From the NCBI RefSeq assembly GCF_900114585.1, contig NZ_FOTL01000027.1:1-32764 (forward strand): DNA of 32,764 nucleotides, read 5' to 3'. The notes under the pieces are model-generated. The model was not told where the DNA came from. It made no database searches and worked only from the letters and a program-made list of their open reading frames with translations. This document shows positions 7,773 to 32,382 of this stretch, in pieces; within the stretch, counting starts at the first letter, position 1; each line of letters opens with the position of its first letter. Position numbers and translations under genes: made by a program. The stretch comes from Methanobrevibacter olleyae (lineage in GTDB: Archaea; Methanobacteriota; Methanobacteria; Methanobacteriales; Methanobacteriaceae).

Positions 7773-7822
7773 ACGTTAGTTTCTAACTTTTAAAATTTTA
7801 AATAAAATAAGAGGTGACACAT

Positions 7823-9040
7823 TTGAGCGATAAAATAGTTATATCCCCAACATCTCGTCAAGAAGGTCATGCAGAACTTGTCATGGAAATTGACGATGAA
7901 GGGATAGTTACCAAAGGTAGATACTTCAGTATCACACCTGTCAGAGGCTTAGAGAAAATGGTTACAGGTAAAGCACCTGAGTCTGCACCAGTTCTTTGTC
8001 AAAGAATCTGTGGGGTATGTCCAATACCTCATACAATGGCATCTGTTGAAGCAATGGATGACTCTTTAGACATTGAAATTCCAAAAGCAGCGGCATTGTT
8101 AAGAGAATTAACAATATCTGCTTCTAACTTAAACAGTCATGCAATTCACCATTTCTTAGTTGCACCTGACTTCGTACCTGAGGATCTTTTCAAAACTGCA
8201 GTTGACAGTGTTGGAACAATTAGGAAAAATGCACAATATGTTGTAGATATGGTTGCTGGTGAAGGTATCCACCCATCTGATGTCAGAATTGGTGGTATGG
8301 CAAGAAACCTTTCAGAACTTGCACGTAAAAAATTATACACCAGACTTAAAGCATTAGTCCCAGTATTAGACAATCATGTTGAATTAATAACTAATTTAGT
8401 CCTTGAAAAGGATATTCCTGAAGGATTAGGTGTTATTGATGCTCCTGTATTTGCAAGTGATGTTGTTTACGGTAAAAGAGAATTCTTCGATCTTGATAGA
8501 TTTACTGAAATTGTACCAGAATTATGGTATGATGATCCAGAAATTGGTAAAAGAGCATGTACTACTGTACCATTATACGATGGTTTAAATGTAGAAACTG
8601 GTCCTAGAGCAAGATTAGATAGATTCCAAGCTTACAAAGAAAGAGGTGTTGTAGCTCAACACTTAGCTAGAGCTCGTGAAATGAAAACTTACCTTTCCAG
8701 AGCTATTGCTATCTTAGATGAATTAGATACTTCTGCCCCTACTCTCGCAGATTTTGACCCAAGAGGTACCAATAAATTAGGTATAGGTGTAATAGAAGCT
8801 CCTAGAGGAACTGATATTCACTTAGCACAAGTAAAAGATGGAAAAACTGCATTTTACAGTGCTTTAGTACCAACTACTTGGAACATCCCAACTATGGGTC
8901 CTGCAACTGAAGGATTCCATCATGAATGGGGACCTCATGTTATTAGAGCTTACGACCCATGTTTATCTTGTGCAACTCATGTAATGGTAGTTGACGATGA
9001 AGATAAATCTATAGTCGAAAATAAAATGGTGAGAATTTAA
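7823..9040 (+). CDS. frhA: Coenzyme F420-reducing hydrogenase, alpha subunit
   Basis: This is the catalytic large subunit of the F420-reducing [NiFe] hydrogenase, which couples H2 oxidation to F420 reduction in hydrogenotrophic methanogens. The protein has 405 residues. [10 protein letters not shown] near the N-terminus and DPCLSCATH near the C-terminus give the four nickel-iron ligands C63, C66, C380 and C383. The Cys in the last motif means this is not a selenocysteine version. The segment after the final His (VMVVDDEDK...MVRI) is the peptide that the maturation protease removes. The frame reaches a GTG at 7814, but that triplet is part of the Shine-Dalgarno GAGGTGA. TTG 7823 gives the family N-terminus [19 protein letters not shown]. 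It is first in frhADGB. Codon choice is more C-rich than in the adhesins, as expected for high expression. Confidence 0.96.
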
Positions 9041-9069
9041 ATTAATTTATTTTAATAGGATGGAAATTT

Positions 9070-9546
9070 ATGCCTTATGACACAGCAAGATTAGTAGTTG
9101 GATGTGGAAACATCTTGTTTAAAGATGATGGATTTGGGCCAACAGTTATTCATAAGATTGAAGAAAAACTTCAAAATGGGGAAATTGAAAAACCTGAAGA
9201 TACTCAGTTTATTGATGCAGGAACTGGAGCAACACATTTTATCTTTTCCATGCCTGATGACAATTGGAAAAAAATAATTGTAATTGATGTTGTAGAATGG
9301 GATGCAGAACCTGGTACCCTTAGATATTTCAGTCCTTATGACATGCCTAAAGGTAAGTATGAAAATGCACATACATGGCCTGTAGAAGAACCACTTCATG
9401 ATTTAGCGGATAGAGGCATTGAAGTTGTTATTGTTGGTTGTAAACCCGCAGAGATTACTGCACCTGATGTTGATTTGGGCCTTACAGAGCCGGTAGAGGC
9501 AGCTATTCCAGAAGCTATTGAAATGATATTAAAAGAACTTAATTAG
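9070..9546 (+). CDS. frhD: F420 hydrogenase maturation protease
   Basis: This 158-residue endopeptidase of the HyaD/HybD family is not part of the mature enzyme. It clips the C-terminal tail of FrhA once nickel is in place. The family start [16 protein letters not shown] (residues 9-24) includes the acidic nickel-sensing position. [12 protein letters not shown] and [12 protein letters not shown] follow, and the C-terminal [21 protein letters not shown] holds the usual strand and loop. The complete length is normal. It begins 29 bases after frhA, with GGATGG just upstream as a weak Shine-Dalgarno sequence. The next gene, frhG, begins 10 bases after it, which fits one operon. Confidence 0.94.
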
Positions 9547-9556
9547 GGGTTTAGCA

Positions 9557-10495
9557 ATGCTTGCAAGAATTAAAAACAGTATTAGAAAATTTTTAGGCCT
9601 TGAAGCTAAACCGGATGAAGATGATGATGCAAAAGCTAAACTAAAACAAGAAATTAAAAAAGAAGTTGAAGCTCAATCCAAGCCTGCTGAAGATGCTAAA
9701 AAAGAAGCAGATGCTAAAAGAGCTGAAGAAGAGGCAAAACAAGCAGAATCATCTGAAATAACTAATGAATCTTCAACTCAGGAGGTTGAAAAAGTGGCTG
9801 ACAAACCAAAAATAGGATATATTCACATGAGTGGTTGTACTGGAGACGGTATGTCATTAACTGAAAACTATGACATTCTCTCAACCTTACTCACTGATAT
9901 GGTGGACATTGTTTACGGAACAACTTTAGTAGATTTATGGGAAATGCCTGAAATGGATTTAGCATTAGTCGAAGGGTCTGTCTGTTTACAAGATGAACAC
10001 AGTGTAAAAGAACTTATGGAAGTAAGAGAAAAAGCAGGATTAGTTTGCGCATTTGGATCTTGTGCAATGACTGGTTGTTTCACTCGTTACTCACGTGGTG
10101 GACAATTAGCTCAACCAAAACATGAATCATTTGTACCAATTTCTGACTTAGTAAAAGTAGATTGTGCTATTCCAGGATGCCCAGCATCCCCAGAGATTAT
10201 TGCAAAAGTTGTAGTTGCATTAATTAACGGAGACATGGATTACTTACAACCTATGTTAGATATGGCAGCATGCAACTTAGCGTGTGGTTGTGACTTACAA
10301 ACAAATGTTGTAAGCAGAGCATTATGTACTGGTTGTGGAACTTGTGTATTAGCTTGTCCAACTAGAGCTCTTGAAATGATAGAAGGTAGACCTTCCCACA
10401 ATAAAAACAGATGTATTAAATGTGGTGCATGTTCTACTCACTGTCCAAGAACATGGTTCCCTGAAGAGCAAATCAAAAAAGACTTAGGATTATAG
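9557..10495 (+). CDS. frhG: F420-reducing hydrogenase, gamma subunit
   Basis: This is the small, electron-transfer subunit. Residues 1-23 ([23 protein letters not shown]) are a conserved start. About 55 residues of Lys/Glu/Ala-rich, probably helical sequence follow. From 83 comes the [NiFe] small-subunit core: GCTGD with C94 and D97 (the family has an Asp in the proximal-cluster motif), [21 protein letters not shown] and PGCPASPE. The last 70 residues hold two ferredoxin-type motifs, [12 protein letters not shown] and [12 protein letters not shown], which bind two [4Fe-4S] clusters passing electrons to FrhB. At 312 residues it is longer than the Methanothermobacter protein as I remember it (near 275); the extra length is in the charged linker. 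AGGGG lies 9 bases before ATG 9557. A second in-frame start signal is at 9794. Confidence 0.95.
9780..9796 (+). promoter_or_regulatory. Internal Shine-Dalgarno and GTG within frhG
   Basis: AGGAGG at 9780-9785 is followed, eight bases later, by an in-frame GTG at 9794-9796 (codon 80). It stands at the junction between the charged linker and the conserved core. Initiation here would give a 233-residue core protein. Confidence 0.35.
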
Positions 10496-10507
10496 GAGGA
10501 TATTAAA

Positions 10508-11353
10508 ATGGCATTCGGTACATATAAAGAAGTAGTATCTGCTAGAGCTACTGATAAACAAATCCAAAAAGTCGCACAAGATGGTGGAATCGTAACAGCT
10601 TTATTAACTTATGCTTTAGAGGAAAATATTATTGAAGGTGCAATCGTAGCTGGTGACACCGAAGATGCATGGAAACCAGAACCTACTATTGCAATGACTC
10701 CAGAAGAAATTATTGCAGCAGCAGGTACTAAATACACCTTCTCTCCAAATGCAATCAAATTAAAAGAAGCTGTAAGACAATATGGTCTTGAAAAGATTGG
10801 AACTGTAGGAACTCCTTGTCAAATAATGGGATTAAGAAAAATGCAATCTTATCCATTTTCTACCAGATTTGTTGCAGATAAAATTGCATTATTAATCGGT
10901 ATTTTCTGTATGGAAAACTTCCCAAGAGATTCCTTAAAAACTTTTGTAGAAGGAAAAATGAATTCTTCCTTAGAAAATGTTAACAAGATGGATATTGGAA
11001 AAGGAAAATTCTGGATTACTGATCCTGAAAAAGAATCTGGACTTGCATTAAAAGAAACCCACGGATATGAACAAGCTGGATGTAACATTTGTCTTGACTA
11101 TGTTGCAGAATTAGCTGATCTATCTACTGGATCTGTAGGTTCTCCAGATGGATGGTCTACTGTGTTCACTAGAACTGACAGTGGAGCAGACATCTTTACC
11201 GCAGCTGTTGAAGCTGGTGTAATCGAAACCAAATCTATGGATGATGTAAAACCAGGTTTAGAATTACTCGAAAAATTAACTAACGGTAAAAAGGATAAAG
11301 GTAGACAAGAGATTGAAAGAAGAGTTAATATGGGACTTTCAACTCCTTTCTAA
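10508..11353 (+). CDS. frhB: F420-reducing hydrogenase, beta subunit
   Basis: This 281-residue flavoprotein takes electrons from FrhG through a [4Fe-4S] cluster and FAD and reduces F420. Family signatures in order: [15 protein letters not shown] (about 26-40), the Cys loop [27 protein letters not shown], the cluster segment [21 protein letters not shown], and [16 protein letters not shown]. Length and ends are those of a complete FrhB. AGGAGG at 10494-10499 gives the ATG at 10508 a good ribosome binding site that overlaps the frhG stop, so the last two genes are translationally close. A T-rich tract after 11360 probably ends the operon. Confidence 0.96.
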
Positions 11354-22760: not shown

Positions 22761-23193
22761 TTTTTTTATAGAAGGTTAATATAACATTGTTATATTATAA
22801 TGTTTTAATTATGTCTTCTTTAATTACTTTTTTACCATTATTTTATATCATTAGTTTTTTACCATTATTTTATATCATTAGTTTTTTACCATTATTTTAT
22901 AATTTTCTCTATTTTTCCAAATTTTACTTTTTTCAATAGATAAGATATATTTATTAATATAAAAAATTATAAATTAGTATATATCAATCATATTTTATAT
23001 TTTTTAAATAAAATTTAAATTATAAAATGTTTTTTTAATATAAACTTTAATTTAGTTAAAAATTTCTTAATTAAATTTCTAATAATTTTAAAAAGCTTTC
23101 AATTAAATCTTTTTGAATAATTTAAAATTTTTATTTAGGTTTTAGTTTATAGAAAATAGCTGTTGAACAAATAAAAATTACTGGAGGTGTTTG
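22761..23193. other. Intergenic region between tRNA-Met and the third adhesin
   Basis: A T run directly after the tRNA (22761-22767) probably terminates it. An inverted repeat AATATAAC-att-GTTATATT lies at 22778-22796 and a 27-base tandem repeat at 22828-22901. The rest is A+T-rich upstream DNA. No gene is visible. Confidence 0.55.
22828..22901. repeat. 27-bp tandem repeat, 2.7 copies
   Basis: The unit ttttttaccattattttata plus tcattag starts at 22828, 22855 and 22882. The two full copies are identical and the third stops after 20 bases. Confidence 0.85.
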
Positions 23194-26100
23194 ATGAGAA
23201 GTAAAAAATTAATTGAATTTAGTTTAATATTCATTTTAATTTTTCTTTTTATTGGATTAAACACTGTTAATGCATCAAATTCAGAGGATACTATTAATAA
23301 TTTATCAGATAGTTTAGAATCAGATAGTTTAGAATCAGATAGTTTAGAATCTTCTCCAGTTTCTAGTGCTGTTGATCTTGTTAATAATAATCTAGAATCT
23401 AGTTCTATTGATGATAGTTTAGATAGTTCTAATGATGATGCTAATAGTTTATCTATTTTAGATAATTCTATTGATGATAGTGATAGTATATCTAATTTAG
23501 ATGGTTCAGTTGAAGAAACATTTAGTGATAAATCTAAACTTGGTGATAGTGGAAAAACAGTCCATACTATAACTGAAGCAGACTATTCTAATTATTTTGA
23601 TTCTAATGGTAATTTAATTAATTCATTAGTAAAATCTAATGACACTATTAATTTGTCTGGTAATTTTTCTAATAAAAAATTTATAATAAATATTCCTTTA
23701 ACAATTACAAGTACTGAAAATGATGCGTTTTTAAAAAATTCTCCAATATACTATGTAAATGTTTCTAATGAGAATTTTAAATATGATGCAATTGTTTCTA
23801 AATTAAAAATTGAATCAAATTTGGCTAATATATCTGCAGTTTGGATAATCGGCTCTAGTAATATAAAAGTTTTAAATAATGATATATTTACTACTGGACA
23901 TAATGGTTATCCTATTTCTCTAGATAGTTTTACCTATAATTGTATTGTTGAAAGTAATATCATTAAAACAATTGTTCCAGTGAATTCAGCAGTTAATTCT
24001 TCAGATTTAAATACGTCTGATGAAAATTCAGGAGATAACAGCAGCTGGCAACATTCAGGTATTAGTTTAAGAGATGCACATTGGAATTCAATTGTCAATA
24101 ACCTTATTACAGTTGAAAATTCTTATGGAGTATATCTTTGTTACGGTGCTTCTATATCTAATAACAACATTATAGCTAATAATACAATTAGAGCAACTTC
24201 AAAAACTCCATCATTTTGGTCTTATGGTGTTTATTTAACTGGTAGTTACAATACTGTAGCAGATAATACTATTATTCGTATGTATAGGGGAATTCATTCA
24301 AGTTATGCTCATAATTGCATAATTGGAAATAAAATTTATGATATTAATGGGTTTGATGAAAATAATGGCATTGGTGGAGATTATGGAATTTATGGTGGCA
24401 ATGACACTTTAATTGCTAATAACTCTATATATAATGCAGATTTAATCGGTGCAGGTATTCTTGTAGGTTCCAATACTAATGTTTATGGAAACTATATTCA
24501 AATAAATAGTAGCGGGCATGGTATTATAATTGGTGATGTAGAAGGAGGCCTCAATTCAAAGGTTTATAATAACACCATTGACTTCTTATCAGGTGTAGGT
24601 ATTACTTTGAAAGGCACTCCTCAGGATACTGAAGTTTATAATAATATTATAAATTCGCTATCTGAAATTGGAGCAAGTCAAGGTTCTGGATTAGGTATTG
24701 GCATTTTATCAATATATCAATCAAGATCTAAAAGGCCTTATAATATCTCTACATACAATAATACAATTTATACATCTAATAACTGTGCTATAAATATTGC
24801 TCAATCTTCCACTGAATCATATTTGTGTATAGATAACATCATTGGTGATAAGATAATTATTTATCCAATTTCTAGTGGGAATATTCCTGAATTTGGTGAA
24901 GGTAATGTTTATGAGTTAACTGATGATGACTATGGCAAATATTTTAACTCTAATGGCTATCTAAAAGATAATGTAGAAGATGGGGATACTTTAATTTTCT
25001 CTGGCAATTTCACTCCTAAAGGTAGAATCATCTTGAATAAGGCAGTTAATATTATTGGAGATAATGCATTATTAAAAGATACTACCATATTTCTTAATTC
25101 CTCTAATTGCAGAGTTCAAGACCTTAATATTGTAAATAATGGTTCAAGTGATAGCAATTGCAACCTTTGGGGAATTTATGTTTATGAGGCAGACAATGAG
25201 ATAATCAGCGGAAATAATATCACTATATGGGATATGAATACTTCATATGGCATTTACCTTTGTGACTCCTACAATGATACTGTTGTAAACAATAGTATAA
25301 GATGTCAGGGAAACAATTTGGTATTTGCTGTTTTAACATATGAGACTTATAATACGCTTTTTGAAAATAATAGTATTTTGGCTATTGGTACAAGTGAATT
25401 ATATCCATATTATCAAACTATTTGTATAGATGGCATTCGTAGTATTTCAGAACTTTCTAAAACATATGGCGTAATTTTAGATTTCTCAAGTGATAATCAA
25501 TTTATTCATAATGATATTGAAGTCACATCTACTGTAGAAGGTTTCCAAGTACCTTATAATCCTTCTGTAAACATTCTTATAGGTCTTTATATCTATTATG
25601 ACTCTAATAGGAACAATATTAGTGAAAACAATGTATATGTTCATGGCCATGATCCTTTCTTATATGGAATGGGATCCTCTGGAGATGATACAAGTAAATC
25701 TGTAACTTATGCTTGTGAGAACATTTTCACTAAGAATAATATTACTGTTGAAGCGGATTATTTTGCTATGGGAATGATTTTAAGACACAACTCTAAAGAC
25801 ACTGTTATTGAAGAAAATTACTTTAGGCTTGATTCTAATAATTATACTTATGGTATTACTTTAGAAATATCTGAAGGCTCTAAAATTAAGAAGAATACTC
25901 TTAATAGTACTAGTAAAGCAGGTATTTATGCTATTGAACTTTATTCATCTAATAATAATTATATAATTGATAATGATATTTCTGCTGTAGGAAGTTTTGC
26001 AGCTATTGCTCTTTATGCTTCTTCTGGTAATAATGTTACTAACAATGATATTAACACTCAAGGGGATGAAAGCCAAAATCCTGCACAAGGTCCAGAACAC

Positions 26101-26733
26101 CCTGACTCTGTAGATTTATTCAATACTGGAATCTCTTTACAAAAACATTCTTGCAATAATAACATTATTAACAATAGGATTAATACATCTGGAAAATATG
26201 CAGTACATTTTGATAGAACTTCTACTAATAATACTGTAATAAATAATACCTTATCTTCTTCTGAAGCTGAAGGAGATGATGCAGTTTATGATCCAAGTGG
26301 GAAAAACAATGTTTCTGGAAATCATGGCCCTAGATATCATCCAGCTAATGGCTCTAGATATCATCCAGCTAATGGTTCTAGTTCATCTAGTAATTCTCAT
26401 AAAAATTCATATAGGGGTAATTCTAACCAATCTAACAATGGCTATAATGGAGGATCTTCATCATATCCTAGAGATGCAGACTCATCTGGCTCTAGCGCTT
26501 TTGGTGATGTAAATTCAAATTCACTTGCTAATGCATTATCTTCAATAGGCGAAGGTAGTGGTGAAGCTGGAGCTAGTGAATCTGGTGATTTATCTGAGTT
26601 GTTAGCTAGTGAAATCCAAGAACTTGCTTCTAAAACATTATCTGGTATTTATGTACCTATTGCTGCATTAGTTCTTGTATTGATATTCTGTTTCAGCTTC
26701 TTAGGTGCAAGAGATGAAGATGATGAAGAATAA
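23194..26733 (+). CDS. Adhesin-like surface protein with C-terminal transmembrane anchor
   Basis: This is an exported protein of 1179 residues. The signal (about 1-27) ends VNASNS. Residues 28-120 are Ser/Asp/Leu-rich with three SDSLE repeats. Module 1 is at about 126 (EADYSNYFDSNG) and module 2 at about 575 (DDDYGKYFNSNG), each followed by beta-helix-like rungs (NNTI, NNDI, YGIYL). C744 lies in ICIDG, which aligns with the Cys-rich block of the next protein. There are no Ig-like domains. A Ser/Asn/Gly linker with a duplicated RYHPANGS leads to one transmembrane helix (about 1151-1172, IYVPIAALVLVLIFCFSFLG) and the tail RDEDDEE. So it is held in the membrane and not by a wall-binding stalk. 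GGAGGTG is followed by TTG and then ATG; ATG 23194 is the better start. Much of it aligns with the 27106 protein, so they are paralogues. Confidence 0.85.
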   Translation: MRSKKLIEFSLIFILIFLFIGLNTVNASNSEDTINNLSDSLESDSLESDSLESSPVSSAVDLVNNNLESSSIDDSLDSSNDDANSLSILDNSIDDSDSISNLDGSVEETFSDKSKLGDSGKTVHTITEADYSNYFDSNGNLINSLVKSNDTINLSGNFSNKKFIINIPLTITSTENDAFLKNSPIYYVNVSNENFKYDAIVSKLKIESNLANISAVWIIGSSNIKVLNNDIFTTGHNGYPISLDSFTYNCIVESNIIKTIVPVNSAVNSSDLNTSDENSGDNSSWQHSGISLRDAHWNSIVNNLITVENSYGVYLCYGASISNNNIIANNTIRATSKTPSFWSYGVYLTGSYNTVADNTIIRMYRGIHSSYAHNCIIGNKIYDINGFDENNGIGGDYGIYGGNDTLIANNSIYNADLIGAGILVGSNTNVYGNYIQINSSGHGIIIGDVEGGLNSKVYNNTIDFLSGVGITLKGTPQDTEVYNNIINSLSEIGASQGSGLGIGILSIYQSRSKRPYNISTYNNTIYTSNNCAINIAQSSTESYLCIDNIIGDKIIIYPISSGNIPEFGEGNVYELTDDDYGKYFNSNGYLKDNVEDGDTLIFSGNFTPKGRIILNKAVNIIGDNALLKDTTIFLNSSNCRVQDLNIVNNGSSDSNCNLWGIYVYEADNEIISGNNITIWDMNTSYGIYLCDSYNDTVVNNSIRCQGNNLVFAVLTYETYNTLFENNSILAIGTSELYPYYQTICIDGIRSISELSKTYGVILDFSSDNQFIHNDIEVTSTVEGFQVPYNPSVNILIGLYIYYDSNRNNISENNVYVHGHDPFLYGMGSSGDDTSKSVTYACENIFTKNNITVEADYFAMGMILRHNSKDTVIEENYFRLDSNNYTYGITLEISEGSKIKKNTLNSTSKAGIYAIELYSSNNNYIIDNDISAVGSFAAIALYASSGNNVTNNDINTQGDESQNPAQGPEHPDSVDLFNTGISLQKHSCNNNIINNRINTSGKYAVHFDRTSTNNTVINNTLSSSEAEGDDAVYDPSGKNNVSGNHGPRYHPANGSRYHPANGSSSSSNSHKNSYRGNSNQSNNGYNGGSSSYPRDADSSGSSAFGDVNSNSLANALSSIGEGSGEAGASESGDLSELLASEIQELASKTLSGIYVPIAALVLVLIFCFSFLGARDEDDEE
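23305..23349 (+). repeat. 15-bp coding tandem repeat (SDSLE x3)
   Basis: Three identical copies of tcagatagtttagaa lie in the low-complexity region after the signal peptide. Perfect identity suggests recent slippage; any change stays in frame. Confidence 0.85.
26331..26378 (+). repeat. 24-bp coding duplication (RYHPANGS)
   Basis: Two copies of a unit starting tagatatcatccagctaatg differ at one base. They encode RYHPANGS twice in the linker before the transmembrane helix. Confidence 0.85.
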
Positions 26734-27105: not shown

Positions 27106-30100
27106 ATGAATTCCAATAAAACTTTGACAATATTGGGATTATTGATATTATTGATATTAGCTATTGGATCTATAAGTGCAAGTGATTTAGATTCAGATTC
27201 AAATATTCTAGGGGATAATTCTGCTAATATTGATTTAACAGATGAAAGATATGCTGTTAATGAAATCGATGATTCTAATATTCTAGGGGAAGTAAATGCT
27301 GATAATATCAACACTAACGATAAAAATACTAATGAAAATTTAAATAATATTGATGATAATCTTAACAGTATTTGTGATGTTGAAAAATCTGTAGCTGTGA
27401 AAAATAATCCTGGTAATAATGATCTTGCATCTACAAATAAATTTAAAGAAAGTGATTATTCCACTTACTTTAATTCAAATGGAAATATAATCTCTGGAAA
27501 ATTAAAATCCGGAGACACATTAGACTTTTCAGGTGAATTTACTAATAAAATGTTTATAATTAACATTCCTTTAGTTATTACTAGTGCTGATGGCACTGCT
27601 CAGCTAAATAATTGTGGATTTAGTTTTATAAATGGTTCAAGTGCTTCTATTATTTCTAATTTAAAAATTAATAATACTGATAATGGAAAATCCTTAATTT
27701 CTCTTTCTGATGTAAATGATATGACTCTTAAAAATAACAATCTTTTCAGTTCTGGCAGGGAATCTTATCCTATGACCTTTTCAAGAGTTAATAGAATGAA
27801 TATTTTTAATAATACTCTTCAGACTACTGGCTATGTGCAAGGTTGGGGCCATCCTTCAGCTATGGTTTTGCGTAATGCGGGGTCCTGTAATATTACTGGA
27901 AACACTGTTATAACTAATGATTCTAATGGTATTTATTTCACAGGATATGTTGCAGGTTCATCAAGTGCATCAGGAGATGCAGCAAGTTATTCAAATTACA
28001 TAGTTAATAATACAGTTTATTCTATTAGGGAATTACCTTCTTCATTTGTTTATGGTATTCAAGTAATGAGCAGCAATAATTATATTATAAATAATACTGT
28101 TTGTAATACTTTTAGAGGGATTTCTACTACTGGATCTAATAATCAGATTATAGGAAATAAAATTTCAAATATTCATGGAGCTTATTATAGCAATGCTAAT
28201 ACTGAAGAAGGTGGAGATTATGCTATTTATGCAGGATCTAATAGTATAGTTAGAGACAATATCATTTCAGATTGTTATTTTGGTCTGGCATCTGATGATA
28301 GGGTTCCTGCAGCTATTTCTGCACAGAAGGGTTCTAATGTTACAAATAATATTTTAAGAGACATTGATGGTATAGGTGCTTATTTATATGGTAATGGCAT
28401 TAATTTCTTAGAAAATGATTTAAATATTACTGGATACGGTATTTATATTAAGGGCAATATTAGTAATGTTCTTATTTCAGATAATGTAATTGACTCTAAT
28501 AATCAAACTAATATTAAACTAATCAAACAGAGCAGATTTTTATTTCCAAATAATATAATTATAAAAAATAACTTATTATACAATTTAGGAGTTTTATCTA
28601 TAGATATTCCCAATGAATCTAAAAATATCACTGGTTTAGAAACTAACATTATTTTTGGAGGTACAGAGCCTCATGCATTAGATGAAGGTTCAGTTCATTT
28701 TCTTAATGAATCTAATTTTTATAATTATTTTACAAGTGCTGGGGATTTAGAAAACTTCATTAAAGAGAATGATACCTTGGTGTTTATAGGAAAATTCTCA
28801 TCAAAGAATAAGATATTCATTAACCAAAAAGTGAATCTTATTGGTGTAGCTGCTAAATTTAGTGATACAAGCTTTATAATTAATGATGATGATGTTTCAA
28901 TAAGAAATATTAAAATATATAATCCAAACACTGATTTGAAAAATCGTTTATGGGGCATTCAAGTTAATGGGGTTAAAAATGTAAGAATCGAAGATTGTGA
29001 CATCTCTATTTATGATCCTTATTCAGCCTATGCAGTTTATCTTTTAGAAGCTTCTAATTGTAGTATTATAAACAATACTTTAGAAGCAAGGGGTAATTAC
29101 TTTACAGTGGCAATACTTTCATTTAATTCTAAAGATATACTTATTGATGGCAACACCATTAAAACAATAGGTAGTGGTGAAACATATCTCATTAACAATA
29201 AAAGTTGTTTAGATGGATTTATTAATATTTATTCAGATACTTGTATAGATGGTTCTATAACTTGCCCAGATGGTTATGAACTTTGTCCTGACGGATCTTT
29301 ACTATGTCCGGATGGGGCAGTAGTTAATTCTAGCGAATATTACCTATGTGTTGATGGTTCTATTGTTTTTGCTGATGGCACTATTGTTTGTGCTGATGGC
29401 ACTACAATTGATGGGGTAGTTTGTGCAGATGGTGTTTGTGCAGATGGAAAAACTTATTGCCTTGATGGTACCATAATTCTTGAGAATGGTACAAGAATTT
29501 GTGCAGGAGATTATCAAATCACTTCTGAAAATGATGTAATATATCCTGATGGTACAATTGTTAGCTCTGAAGATTATAATATTAATGAAACAGATGGATC
29601 TATTATTTGTCCTGATGGCACTGTTATTTGCGTTGATGGGTCTGTCATTTGTCCTAATGGTACTGTTATTTGCGTAGATGGGTCCGGTTCTAATAATAAT
29701 TTAGATGGTGTAATACCGGGTTCTCATATGGTATCTGGAGTATTTAGAACTTATGGTGTATTATTGATTCATTCATCTAATATTAATTTAACAAACAATA
29801 AAATTGATGTAGGTTCTGATTTATCATCTGATTACAATTTAAATGAATCTTATAACTCTATTGCAGGTGTATTTATCCATTATGGTGGATTTAATAACAC
29901 TATTTCAAATAATGAAATTTTGCTTCATTCCAATGATCCGGTGATTTATGGTATGGGTATTATTGGAGCAAGTCCTAATAGCACTGCTGAGGGATCTAAA
30001 AATAACAATTTTACTAATAATAATCTTACTATTGTTGGCCCATTCCAAGGTGTAGGTATTGTTTTAGCTTATAAAGCCATTGGGTCTAATTTTTTAAATA

Positions 30101-31041
30101 ATAATATTGGAATTTTTACTAATCATAGTTATAATGTTTTAAAATATGCCGGTAGCGAGAATAACACTCTTGAAGGAAATGTTTTTGATAAGAAGATTAA
30201 TACTGTTTTAATTGTATCTAACACATCTTATAAATTTGATAATCCAAATAAAATTATCACAGTAACCCTTAAAGATGATAGTGGAAAAGCTATTGCTAAT
30301 CTTAATATTAAAATAACTGTAAATGGCAAAACTTACACTGTCAAAACTAATAATTATGGTATTGCAACTCTTAAAGTGACATTATCTGCTATAAAAGCTT
30401 ATGATATAAGCGCTAAGTTTGATGGAGATACTTTTTACTTTGCATCAGTGGGAACTGGTAAAATTACAGTTACTAAAGATTCAACTAGCTTAACTTCATC
30501 AGCTAAAACTTATACAGTTAGCTCAACTGCAAAATACATTTATATAACTCTTAAAGATGGAAGTAATAAAGCACTTGCTAATAAGCTGATAACTGCAACT
30601 GTAAATGGAAAAACCTTTAAAGCTTATACTAATTCTAAGGGTCTGGCTAAAATTGAGTTAACTTTAACTGCTGCTAAAACTTACACTGTATCACTTAAAT
30701 TTGCAGGTGATAATTATTACACTGGAAGTGCTAAATCTATAAAAGTTAAAGTTACTAAAACTAAAACTAAATTAGCTGTACCTAATAAATCCTATAAAAA
30801 GTCTGCTAAAGTTAAAAAATTAACTGCAACTCTTAAAGATCGTACAGGTAAAAGAATCAAAAACAAAAAAATTACCTTCATAGTTAATGGTAAAAAGTAT
30901 AAGGCAAAAACTAATAAAAGAGGAGTTGTAACTGTAAAAGTTAAATTGTCTAAAAAGAAAACTTATAAATTTACAGTTAAATTTGCTGGGGATAAAACTT
31001 ATTATTCAGCTAAAAAAACTGCTAAAGTTAAAATAAAATAG
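27106..31041 (+). CDS. Adhesin-like surface protein with Cys-rich CxDG block and three Ig-like domains
   Basis: This is a secreted protein of 1311 residues. The signal (about 1-25) ends ISASD, and an Asp/Asn-rich stretch follows. Module 1 is at about 113 (ESDYSTYFNSNG) and module 2 at about 533 (ESNFYNYFTSAG), each leading into beta-helix-like rungs similar to the 23194 protein. Residues 701-856 are a unique insert of short C-x-D-G turns with 15 Cys, and the beta-helix resumes with FRTYGVLLIHS. Three Ig-like domains begin near 1031, 1126 and 1220. The last is Lys-rich and ends AKVKIK, like the 11725 and 16697 proteins. GAGGTG lies 7 bases before the ATG. The role is presumably adhesion or cell-surface binding. 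The Cys block could form disulfides outside the cell or bind metal. A hairpin follows the stop. Confidence 0.85.
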   Translation: MNSNKTLTILGLLILLILAIGSISASDLDSDSNILGDNSANIDLTDERYAVNEIDDSNILGEVNADNINTNDKNTNENLNNIDDNLNSICDVEKSVAVKNNPGNNDLASTNKFKESDYSTYFNSNGNIISGKLKSGDTLDFSGEFTNKMFIINIPLVITSADGTAQLNNCGFSFINGSSASIISNLKINNTDNGKSLISLSDVNDMTLKNNNLFSSGRESYPMTFSRVNRMNIFNNTLQTTGYVQGWGHPSAMVLRNAGSCNITGNTVITNDSNGIYFTGYVAGSSSASGDAASYSNYIVNNTVYSIRELPSSFVYGIQVMSSNNYIINNTVCNTFRGISTTGSNNQIIGNKISNIHGAYYSNANTEEGGDYAIYAGSNSIVRDNIISDCYFGLASDDRVPAAISAQKGSNVTNNILRDIDGIGAYLYGNGINFLENDLNITGYGIYIKGNISNVLISDNVIDSNNQTNIKLIKQSRFLFPNNIIIKNNLLYNLGVLSIDIPNESKNITGLETNIIFGGTEPHALDEGSVHFLNESNFYNYFTSAGDLENFIKENDTLVFIGKFSSKNKIFINQKVNLIGVAAKFSDTSFIINDDDVSIRNIKIYNPNTDLKNRLWGIQVNGVKNVRIEDCDISIYDPYSAYAVYLLEASNCSIINNTLEARGNYFTVAILSFNSKDILIDGNTIKTIGSGETYLINNKSCLDGFINIYSDTCIDGSITCPDGYELCPDGSLLCPDGAVVNSSEYYLCVDGSIVFADGTIVCADGTTIDGVVCADGVCADGKTYCLDGTIILENGTRICAGDYQITSENDVIYPDGTIVSSEDYNINETDGSIICPDGTVICVDGSVICPNGTVICVDGSGSNNNLDGVIPGSHMVSGVFRTYGVLLIHSSNINLTNNKIDVGSDLSSDYNLNESYNSIAGVFIHYGGFNNTISNNEILLHSNDPVIYGMGIIGASPNSTAEGSKNNNFTNNNLTIVGPFQGVGIVLAYKAIGSNFLNNNIGIFTNHSYNVLKYAGSENNTLEGNVFDKKINTVLIVSNTSYKFDNPNKIITVTLKDDSGKAIANLNIKITVNGKTYTVKTNNYGIATLKVTLSAIKAYDISAKFDGDTFYFASVGTGKITVTKDSTSLTSSAKTYTVSSTAKYIYITLKDGSNKALANKLITATVNGKTFKAYTNSKGLAKIELTLTAAKTYTVSLKFAGDNYYTGSAKSIKVKVTKTKTKLAVPNKSYKKSAKVKKLTATLKDRTGKRIKNKKITFIVNGKKYKAKTNKRGVVTVKVKLSKKKTYKFTVKFAGDKTYYSAKKTAKVKIK
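29206..29688 (+). repeat. CxDG repeat block (coding)
   Basis: It encodes about 20 short turns of the form (C)-x-D-G-(S/T)-(I/V)-(I/V), with spacing mostly 7 to 8 residues and 15 Cys between C701 and C856. Variants are CPDG, CVDG, CADG, CIDG, CLDG and CPNG. The last part is a recent DNA duplication: a 42-base unit encoding ICPDGTVICVDGSV is followed by ICPNGTVICVDGSG. Confidence 0.85.
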
Positions 31042-31149: not shown

Positions 31150-31893
31150 ATGATTAATGTTGGAGATGCTTTGATTTTTGCGGATGGAGCTGTTTATCAA
31201 GGTTCAAATAATGGATTGTTTGCATTTTTTTCAAATACTAATGGTACTGGCTTAGCTATATTGGATAGCTCATTAACTGCTATTACACAGGCTTTACAGA
31301 TACCTGTAATTATACTTTTAATAGCATTTTTAATATTTGCAGTATATACTTTAGCTAAGCTATTGTCACAATACCTTTCTCGTAAGAAAGTACCTGTTAA
31401 TTTAATCAAAGAAATGATTTATGGCATATATGATGCAGATTCTGCTGATGATATTAGGACTATTGTAAATAATGCAGATATTCAAAAGTCTCAAAAGAAA
31501 ATTTTAGTTGAACTAGCTGAATCAGAGCATCTGGGCAAAAAATCAAGGGAAACTTTAGCCCGTAGATTAATAGATAATGAAGAGGATAAAATTGCACAAT
31601 ATCTTAATAAAACAGATATCGTTACTCGAATTGGACCTACTCTTGGATTAATGGGTACTTTAATTCCTATGGGTCCAGGTCTTGCAGCGTTAGGTACTGG
31701 GGATGTAGCTACACTTGCAAGTGCAATTACAATTGCATTTAACACTACAGTTATTGGTATTGGATCTGGTGCTATTGGATATTTTGCCTCTAAGATAAGG
31801 CGTAGATGGTTTGGTGAATATCTTGCAAATTTGGATGCTTTAATGGATGCTATTTTAGATAACATTAATAAAAGAGATGAGAGAATTAAATAA
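31150..31893 (+). CDS. MotA/TolQ/ExbB-type proton channel protein
   Basis: This 247-residue inner-membrane protein belongs to the ion-driven motor family MotA/TolQ/ExbB. It has a short external N-terminus, a first membrane helix at about 51-72, a cytosolic helical loop to about 155, and two more helices at about 157-182 and 189-214. The last two carry the family core IVTRIGPTLGLMGTLIPMGPGLAALG and ASAITIAFNTTVIGIGSGAIGYFASKIRRRW, with the small-residue and Thr pattern that lines the channel. Such proteins form a ring around an ExbD/TolR/MotB partner. The DUF2149 protein that follows fits that role. GGTGAT lies three bases before the ATG. In methanogens such pairs occur near surface-protein and cobaltochelatase-like genes, and what they energise is not established. 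Confidence 0.87.
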   Translation: MINVGDALIFADGAVYQGSNNGLFAFFSNTNGTGLAILDSSLTAITQALQIPVIILLIAFLIFAVYTLAKLLSQYLSRKKVPVNLIKEMIYGIYDADSADDIRTIVNNADIQKSQKKILVELAESEHLGKKSRETLARRLIDNEEDKIAQYLNKTDIVTRIGPTLGLMGTLIPMGPGLAALGTGDVATLASAITIAFNTTVIGIGSGAIGYFASKIRRRWFGEYLANLDALMDAILDNINKRDERIK

Positions 31894-31960: not shown

Positions 31961-32031
31961 GAAAATATATGAAATTTTAGAATTCATATGGTTTAAATTA
32001 AAAGAGTTTTGCATTGTTTTTGGTGGTTATT

Positions 32032-32382
32032 ATGGCTCGTCGTCGATGTAATAGGCGTTTTGAAACTGAGGAAGAAGATCCTATGGCAGGTACTGCTAAC
32101 CTTGTAGATGCAATGTTAGTTATTGCTGTAGGTTTACTTGTATTTTTAGTACTTGCTTGGAATATGCAAAGTGTTTTATTTAATAATGACTTAAGTCAAG
32201 AGCAAAAAGAAAAAGTTATAGAATCTATGAATCGAGAAGTAATTGAGGTTCAAGAGGGCCAACTATTAAATGAAACTCCAGATACAAGTAATCAAACTGG
32301 ACAAGGTTATACTGAGATGGGTAAGGTCTATAAAGATCCATCTACAGGTAAGATGATTATGGTTCAGAATTCATCTTCATAA
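32032..32382 (+). CDS. DUF2149 protein, ExbD-like partner
   Basis: This 116-residue protein has one membrane helix near the N-terminus and a soluble, presumably external, C-terminal part. A basic cytosolic start (MARRRCNRR) and an acidic stretch precede NLVDAMLVIAVGLLVFLVLAW (23-43). D26 at the start of the helix stands where ExbD/TolR have their proton-carrying Asp in the PLVDVMLV-type motif. The C-terminal half, with TGQGYTEMGKVYKDPSTGKMIMV, is the most typical part of DUF2149. Start: the frame opens at TTG 32014, but GGTGGT lies just before ATG 32032, so I shortened it by six residues. It follows the ExbB-like gene by 138 bases with a palindrome between. An IS element begins 51 bases after the stop, so any third gene of this group has been cut off from it. 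Confidence 0.8.
   Translation: MARRRCNRRFETEEEDPMAGTANLVDAMLVIAVGLLVFLVLAWNMQSVLFNNDLSQEQKEKVIESMNREVIEVQEGQLLNETPDTSNQTGQGYTEMGKVYKDPSTGKMIMVQNSSS

Follow-up and report, generated by a model that had tools for sequence, protein, structure and literature searches.

A Cys-rich CxDG repeat block fixed to one loop of a conserved beta-helix adhesin-like protein of gut and rumen methanogens, with a possible part in metal or tetrapyrrole capture at the cell surface

The window, that is, the whole stretch of 32,764 nucleotides of Methanobrevibacter olleyae analysed here (contig NZ_FOTL01000027.1), carries a gene for a large surface protein with a Cys-rich repeat block, preceded by a paralogue and followed by the genes of an ExbB-type channel protein and its DUF2149 partner. 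Further upstream, at 7814-11353, lie genes of the F420-reducing hydrogenase type, which encode a Ni-dependent hydrogenase large subunit, a 20-kDa/ferredoxin-type subunit, and an FrhB-like subunit. The features of the locus, in window coordinates, are the following.

23191..26733, + strand: upstream paralogous beta-helix protein with a C-terminal membrane anchor (31% identity over 674 aligned positions, E 4e-62; Pfam Beta_helix/NosD)
25423..25434, + strand: single CIDG of the paralogue in the equivalent loop, likely the ancestral form of the block (ICIDG in 6/6 paralogue orthologues)
27106..31041, + strand: CxDG adhesin-like protein gene, 1311 aa, with orthologues in two genera as judged by shared neighbours and a shared insertion site
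27106..27183, + strand: signal peptide, about residues 1-26 (MNSNKTLTILGLLILLILAIGSISAS), read from the translation as a hydrophobic N terminus followed by SAS/D
27376..29205, + strand: right-handed beta-helix in two units, ahead of the block (Pfam Beta_helix PF13229; homology to the paralogue over residues 92-708; pLDDT mostly 84-98)
29206..29688, + strand: CxDG block with 13 CxDG, one CPNG, and 15 Cys, within one loop of the second beta-helix
29722..30165, + strand: resumption of the beta-helix (SHMVSGVFRTYGVLLIHSSN...), with pLDDT up to 98 past the block and aligned to the paralogue
30241..31038, + strand: C-terminal Big_1/Big_3_5 Ig-like domains, probably for cell-wall attachment (Pfam PF02369, PF16640)
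31150..31893, + strand: MotA/TolQ/ExbB-type proton channel protein (Pfam PF01618, E 5e-10), adjoining the CxDG gene on its 3' side in eight further genomes of the same genus
32014..32382, + strand: DUF2149 membrane protein, partner of the ExbB-type protein (Pfam PF09919, E 5e-23; DUF2149 is linked to TolQ in PMC9425974)

The protein has the build of the beta-helix adhesin-like proteins (ALPs) of methanogens. Pfam finds Beta_helix in four stretches (1.9e-9) and Big_1, the expected kind of C-terminal domain, in three (4.4e-18), besides the signal peptide that was read by eye. Attachment to the wall is suggested as the role of such C-terminal domains in PMC2812497.

The first-pass annotation had described the block as a strikingly Cys-rich stretch of an exported beta-helix adhesin from a Methanobrevibacter-type methanogen, with 15 Cys in a protein otherwise almost free of them, and this description holds. 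The 15 Cys of the block (residues 701-861) stand at 701, 713, 720, 727, 734, 748, 762, 773, 778, 785, 799, 835, 842, 849, and 856, against seven in the remaining 1151 residues (22 in total). Along with the 13 CxDG and the CPNG, the block contains some DG turns that lack Cys (FADG, YPDG, ETDG). Shuffling of the whole protein (5000 times) gave a mean of 0.12 CxDG and a maximum of 3, and shuffling of the block only gave a mean of 0.25 and again a maximum of 3. The spacing of 7 to 8 residues that had been assigned to the Cys turns was true only in part: 7 occurs in five of the 12 intervals between Cys motifs, while the others measure 5, 11, 12, 14, and 50. At the DNA level the block consists of diverged 21/42-bp repeats with mixed codons (TGT/TGC, GAT/GAC, and all four GGN), and is no clean recent satellite. 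Since the codons for C, D, and G are mixed, it is the protein motif rather than the DNA that has been kept.

The block appears as an expansion at a single loop. In the alignment with the paralogue, the latter has one CIDG at this place and then continues into the same coil (...TYGVIL...), and the single ICIDG is kept at that loop in paralogues from different species. The insertion site is identical in all 31 aligned family members, and in every genome examined for it the array stands in the same protein, after ...NNTIxTxGTGExY... and before ...HVxxExYRTYGILxxYSS... The simplest history would therefore be that the common ancestor of both proteins had one CxDG turn at this loop, which was multiplied in one of them. 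These comparisons show the block to be a species-variable expansion of one CxDG loop motif, fixed to one loop of a secreted, probably wall-attached beta-helix protein, and this anatomy can be regarded as very likely.

The C-x-D-G repeat was looked for in other Methanobrevibacter adhesins and is present. A CxDG-7-CxDG pattern, searched at the DNA level, was found in 31 of 120 genomes of the family but in only two of its 17 genera, and a reversed control pattern gave almost no matches. Seven of the eight good-quality genomes from the window's genus yielded an orthologue; M. thaueri belongs to the second genus, as judged by sequence type. A wider DNA scan with a three-unit CxDG pattern was directed at one genome per species from 84,980 species, and the matches listed outside Methanobrevibacter were only short, wrong-frame, or chance 21-bp arrays. 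One contig labelled 'uncultured Acholeplasmatales' (L085) carries a Methanobrevibacter CxDG adhesin gene, probably through binning contamination. The viral scan for the array found none, with four chance-like matches. The gene of the CxDG protein is a conserved orthologue in two genera of gut and rumen methanogens.

The blocks of different species vary widely in extent, from 2 to 34 CxDG and 3 to 36 Cys, odd or even in number, over about 30 to 356 residues, and some orthologues have only two or three CxDG. The tetrapeptide nevertheless holds 374 of the 398 block Cys; P, A, I, L, T, and V predominate at its position x, and its third residue is nearly always D. The period depends on the species: it is 4 in the closed genome G026, while some species show 5 or 6, many 7, and a further group 14. 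The array of G026, (CLDG)8(CADG)2(CLDG), has 11 units, among which pS is 1.0 (saturated) and pN 0.11. In other arrays pN/pS is mostly 0.2-0.5, where it should be noted that most arrays were selected by the motif, which lowers pN; the cleanest case is the 4-residue array, whose units fill the whole block. As synonymous sites have diverged widely, selection has acted on the protein. Comparison of the orthologues thus shows the CxDG tetrapeptide as an element evidently held by selection, with its exact spacing tolerated. This is a protein repeat in which a tetrapeptide rather than a spacing is selected, unlike a stacked solenoid. Two readings of the motif were set aside along the way. A Cys-Pro heme-regulatory motif was rejected, since Pro at x is largely confined to part of one genus and CP is hence not the conserved element, and calcium binding of the DxDG type was dropped because each unit has only one acidic residue.

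AlphaFold2 modelling of residues 591-974, with 31 sequences, gave a pLDDT of mostly 84-98 for the flanks and about 30-69 for the block, which was drawn with scattered strands of 2-3 residues. The most regular relative, with 14-residue units, was drawn as a beta-hairpin meander at low confidence (pLDDT about 50, range 26-66). Foldseek searches with both models returned only long and poorly fitting beta-helix or hairpin-repeat matches (TM about 0.1-0.2), none of which explains the block. The models make a flexible or hairpin-like arm off the helix more likely than a solenoid, though low pLDDT is no proof of disorder.

The first-pass annotation knew no named domain for the block, and none has emerged. 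DUF6799 (PF20606) scores above its gathering cut-off and has short D/N-G turn repeats like those of the window block; it was rejected, however, as the match spans only profile positions 24-48 (about 25 of 63) and occurs in only 12 of 31 relatives, the blocks of the remaining ones matching LbR_Ice_bind, CGDB, and other unrelated families instead. Likewise, Tcp10_C (G-box) reached 18-25.5 bits against a Pfam cut-off of 36. The Tcp10_C/G-box and choline-binding-type hairpin repeats do share D/N-G turns between short strands, and the 14-residue CxDG types are drawn as hairpins, but the TM-scores are only about 0.1-0.15. To our knowledge, no Cys array is known in these repeats. Searching PDB sequences with the window block and with the (CLDG)11 segment brought up no meaningful match, NCBIfam had none for the block, and a literature search for a CxDG-type repeat or DUF6799 found nothing. 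As far as these searches can tell, the block matches no named domain.

Around the gene, the window's genus has the paralogue, the CxDG adhesin, MotA/ExbB, and DUF2149 in this order, with biotin genes and dnaJ/dnaK following where the contig reaches. In the second genus it is DUF1002 / CobN, CxDG adhesin, (other adhesin), dnaJ, and dnaK. The dnaJ/dnaK side is common to both genera and hence supports orthology. Of the 14 second-genus loci, 13 extend far enough to show what adjoins the CxDG gene on its 5' side, and in each of them it is a CobN gene; the 14th ends too early. This CobN (Pfam 3e-186; best PDB match CobN) begins with a signal-like stretch, ends in a membrane anchor, and carries the superfamily motif GTHGxxEWLPG in 13/13. 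In place of the HmuS motif LSLDHxxEFMGG (PMC12583661) it reads LDSDDYYDWFGG in 13/13, and an identity of this CobN with HmuS was rejected on that ground.

In two genomes of the window's genus, a cluster of CobN, DUF2162, ExbB, and DUF2149 is found on the strand of the CxDG gene, at a distance of about 7 kb in G053 and about 19 kb in G026; in the latter, CobN is separated from the CxDG gene by two giant adhesins, then DUF2149 and ExbB. In G053, CobN is broken into ORFs of 1429 and 336 aa (L229, G053:C24:32834-38130), by a frameshift or an assembly error. No CobN was seen in two genomes of the window's genus that have the CxDG gene (G010, G040). In the window genome itself, CobN lies on another contig (C21), has the heme dechelatase HmuS as its best PDB match (2e-90), and is followed by DUF2162-ExbB-DUF2149. 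A further ExbB-DUF2149 set of this genome follows the gene of the cobalt transporter CbiM, and such sets also adjoin other surface proteins that have no CxDG arrays. Altogether the window genome has five DUF2149 and seven MotA/ExbB matches, several of them after surface proteins and metal or cofactor genes, namely CobN, CbiM, an ECF transporter, or formate dehydrogenase (L209, G000:C21:5758-12875; L212, G000:C22, 4131-7837; L210, G000:C12; L211, G000:C4). The DUF2149/ExbB sets suggest a family of envelope systems powered by ExbB-DUF2149 in these methanogens. Gene order shows the CxDG gene as a stable member of surface loci with MotA/ExbB-DUF2149 and, adjoining or nearby in most genomes examined, a predicted exported chelatase of the CobN family. 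In M. ruminantium M1, mru2047 is according to PMC2812497 a BchH protein (CobN family) that has membrane helices at its ends, and the adhesins mru2048/2049 served as sources of surface peptides; counting from mru2047-2049, the CxDG gene of this strain would be about mru_2052.

The thiol state of the envelope bears on what the Cys may do. VKOR and DsbB are absent from all 10 genomes examined. In the window genome and in G026, an exported thioredoxin-like protein adjoins a CcdA/DsbD-like membrane protein (L222:6187-7611, L221:7248-8539), and this pair, possibly of the mru_0183/0184 type, is a candidate extracytoplasmic thiol reducer. From the absence of VKOR and DsbB together with this pair, the thiols of the block would be expected to be largely reduced.

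Gene context and conservation are best explained at present, though tentatively, by an arm that gathers metal or metallo-tetrapyrrole. The block would form a flexible arm projecting from the beta-helix, whose many, mostly reduced thiolates, with the Asp carboxylates, would bind a transition metal or a metallo-tetrapyrrole as soft ligands. The array would then enrich its ligand on the outside of the cell, to supply the exported CobN chelatase and a step energised by ExbB-DUF2149 in the manner of TonB/Hmu systems. If the number of ligands and not their geometry matters, copy number and spacing may drift while the motif is held. Several observations count against this reading: adjacency of genes does not establish function, as ExbB-DUF2149 sets also accompany surface proteins free of CxDG arrays; the CobN next to the CxDG gene lacks the HmuS motif; G010 and G040 show no CobN; and certain orthologues have as few as 2-3 CxDG.

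The alternative that survives best is an adhesive or antigenic variable loop, whose copy number would alter reach and epitopes toward partner microbes or the host, the Cys making thiol contacts, by mixed disulfides to mucin or to proteins of a partner, or being merely inherited with the seed motif. The adhesin-like nature of the protein and the range of block lengths speak for it, as does a near-identical 321-bp duplication in one species; this unit of the block (L042:9243-9846) is 93% identical between its copies, a sign of recent expansion. However, both genera keep the gene at one conserved locus next to dnaJ/dnaK, unlike the fast-turnover adhesins, and as Cys is the best kept residue while the spacers vary, it is unlikely to be incidental. 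A variable loop is thus possible, with the odds on balance against it.

Somewhat less probable is an arm stabilised by disulfides, in which the Cys would pair after export and either stiffen a hairpin or meander stalk or cross-link neighbouring wall adhesins. Disulfides are often used in exported proteins with multiple Cys, and here the Cys are regularly placed at turns, with the 14-residue types drawn as beta-hairpins. Against such pairing stand the missing VKOR and DsbB, the reducing thioredoxin/CcdA-like pair of some genomes, and the strictly anaerobic life of the organism; moreover, Cys that are odd or even in number and spaced by 4-14 residues are ill-suited to fixed partners.

An ordered 7-residue solenoid with a Cys ladder along one face is improbable. 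It corresponds to the first-pass proposal of tight coils of 7-8 residues with a ladder of disulfides or bound metal, and it draws on the period of 7, commonest in many species, on the 14 of others, and on weak Pfam matches to beta-roll and hairpin repeats. The proposal did not stand up to the low pLDDT of the block, nor to the structure searches, in which no fold match covered the block with a meaningful TM-score. Since the orthologues have periods of 4, 5, 6, 7, and 14, no fixed coil length can be required, and neither the constant coil length nor the confident regular fold of such a solenoid was found. Finally, neutral DNA slippage or functionless low-complexity sequence is scarcely credible: although many bacteria have 21-bp arrays that happen to read as CxDG in a non-coding frame, those of Methanobrevibacter lie in frame at one and the same site of long ORFs (about 1000-1670 aa), their synonymous positions have changed widely while the motif is conserved, and frame-shifted or Cys-less orthologue blocks are absent from the genomes examined.

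The metal- or tetrapyrrole-gathering arm can be compared with several known systems. Metallothionein-like and other Cys-rich metal-binding repeats combine many Cys with a low-complexity stretch that has no fixed fold. They provide a working analogy for the block, which is likewise rich in Cys and low in complexity, but no sequence relation was found, and the motif is CxDG in the block and CxC or CxxC there. With the methanogen ALPs the protein shares the signal peptide, the beta-helix, and the C-terminal Big_1-type domains (PMC2812497, PMC11532034); it differs from them in its Cys array and in being encoded by a gene conserved in synteny, and no CxDG array is described in the available parts of these two sources. 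Surface proteins apparently from the same region of M. ruminantium were chosen as vaccine peptide targets, according to PMC2812497, and by that choice the array may be accessible from outside.

The closest parallel for the gene set is the hmu system of Bacteroidota (HmuYRSTUV, with HmuS, the ExbB-type HmuU, and HmuT/HmuV), which likewise combines a CobN-family protein with an ExbB-type channel and a small membrane partner. HmuS of Bacteroidota takes iron out of heme and is thought to act with HmuTUV, whereas the role of its archaeal homologues has been called unclear (PMC12583661). In Prevotella, an operon with the order TonB receptor, CbiK, CobN, ExbB, and DUF2149 matches the archaeal CobN-ExbB-DUF2149 arrangement; the archaeal loci, in contrast to the hmu system, showed neither a TonB receptor nor HmuY. 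The CxDG gene adjoins ExbB-DUF2149 in one genus and CobN in the other, and both occur together at 7-19 kb in two genomes. It can be conjectured, with more doubt than for the arm as such, that the CxDG adhesin is the surface ligand collector of a new archaeal counterpart of Hmu, the arm capturing a metal or metallo-tetrapyrrole outside the pseudomurein wall and passing it to the exported CobN and the ExbB-DUF2149 motor.

Both the CobN/HmuS-like chelatases of archaea and the adhesin-like proteins that gut methanogens carry are abundant proteins of obscure function. Methanogen metabolism needs Ni, Co, and Fe, and the synteny of a Cys array with chelatase and ExbB-type genes offers a testable link to the capture of metal or porphyrin at the cell surface. 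If this link is true, the archaeal CobN/HmuS homologues would thereby gain a role.
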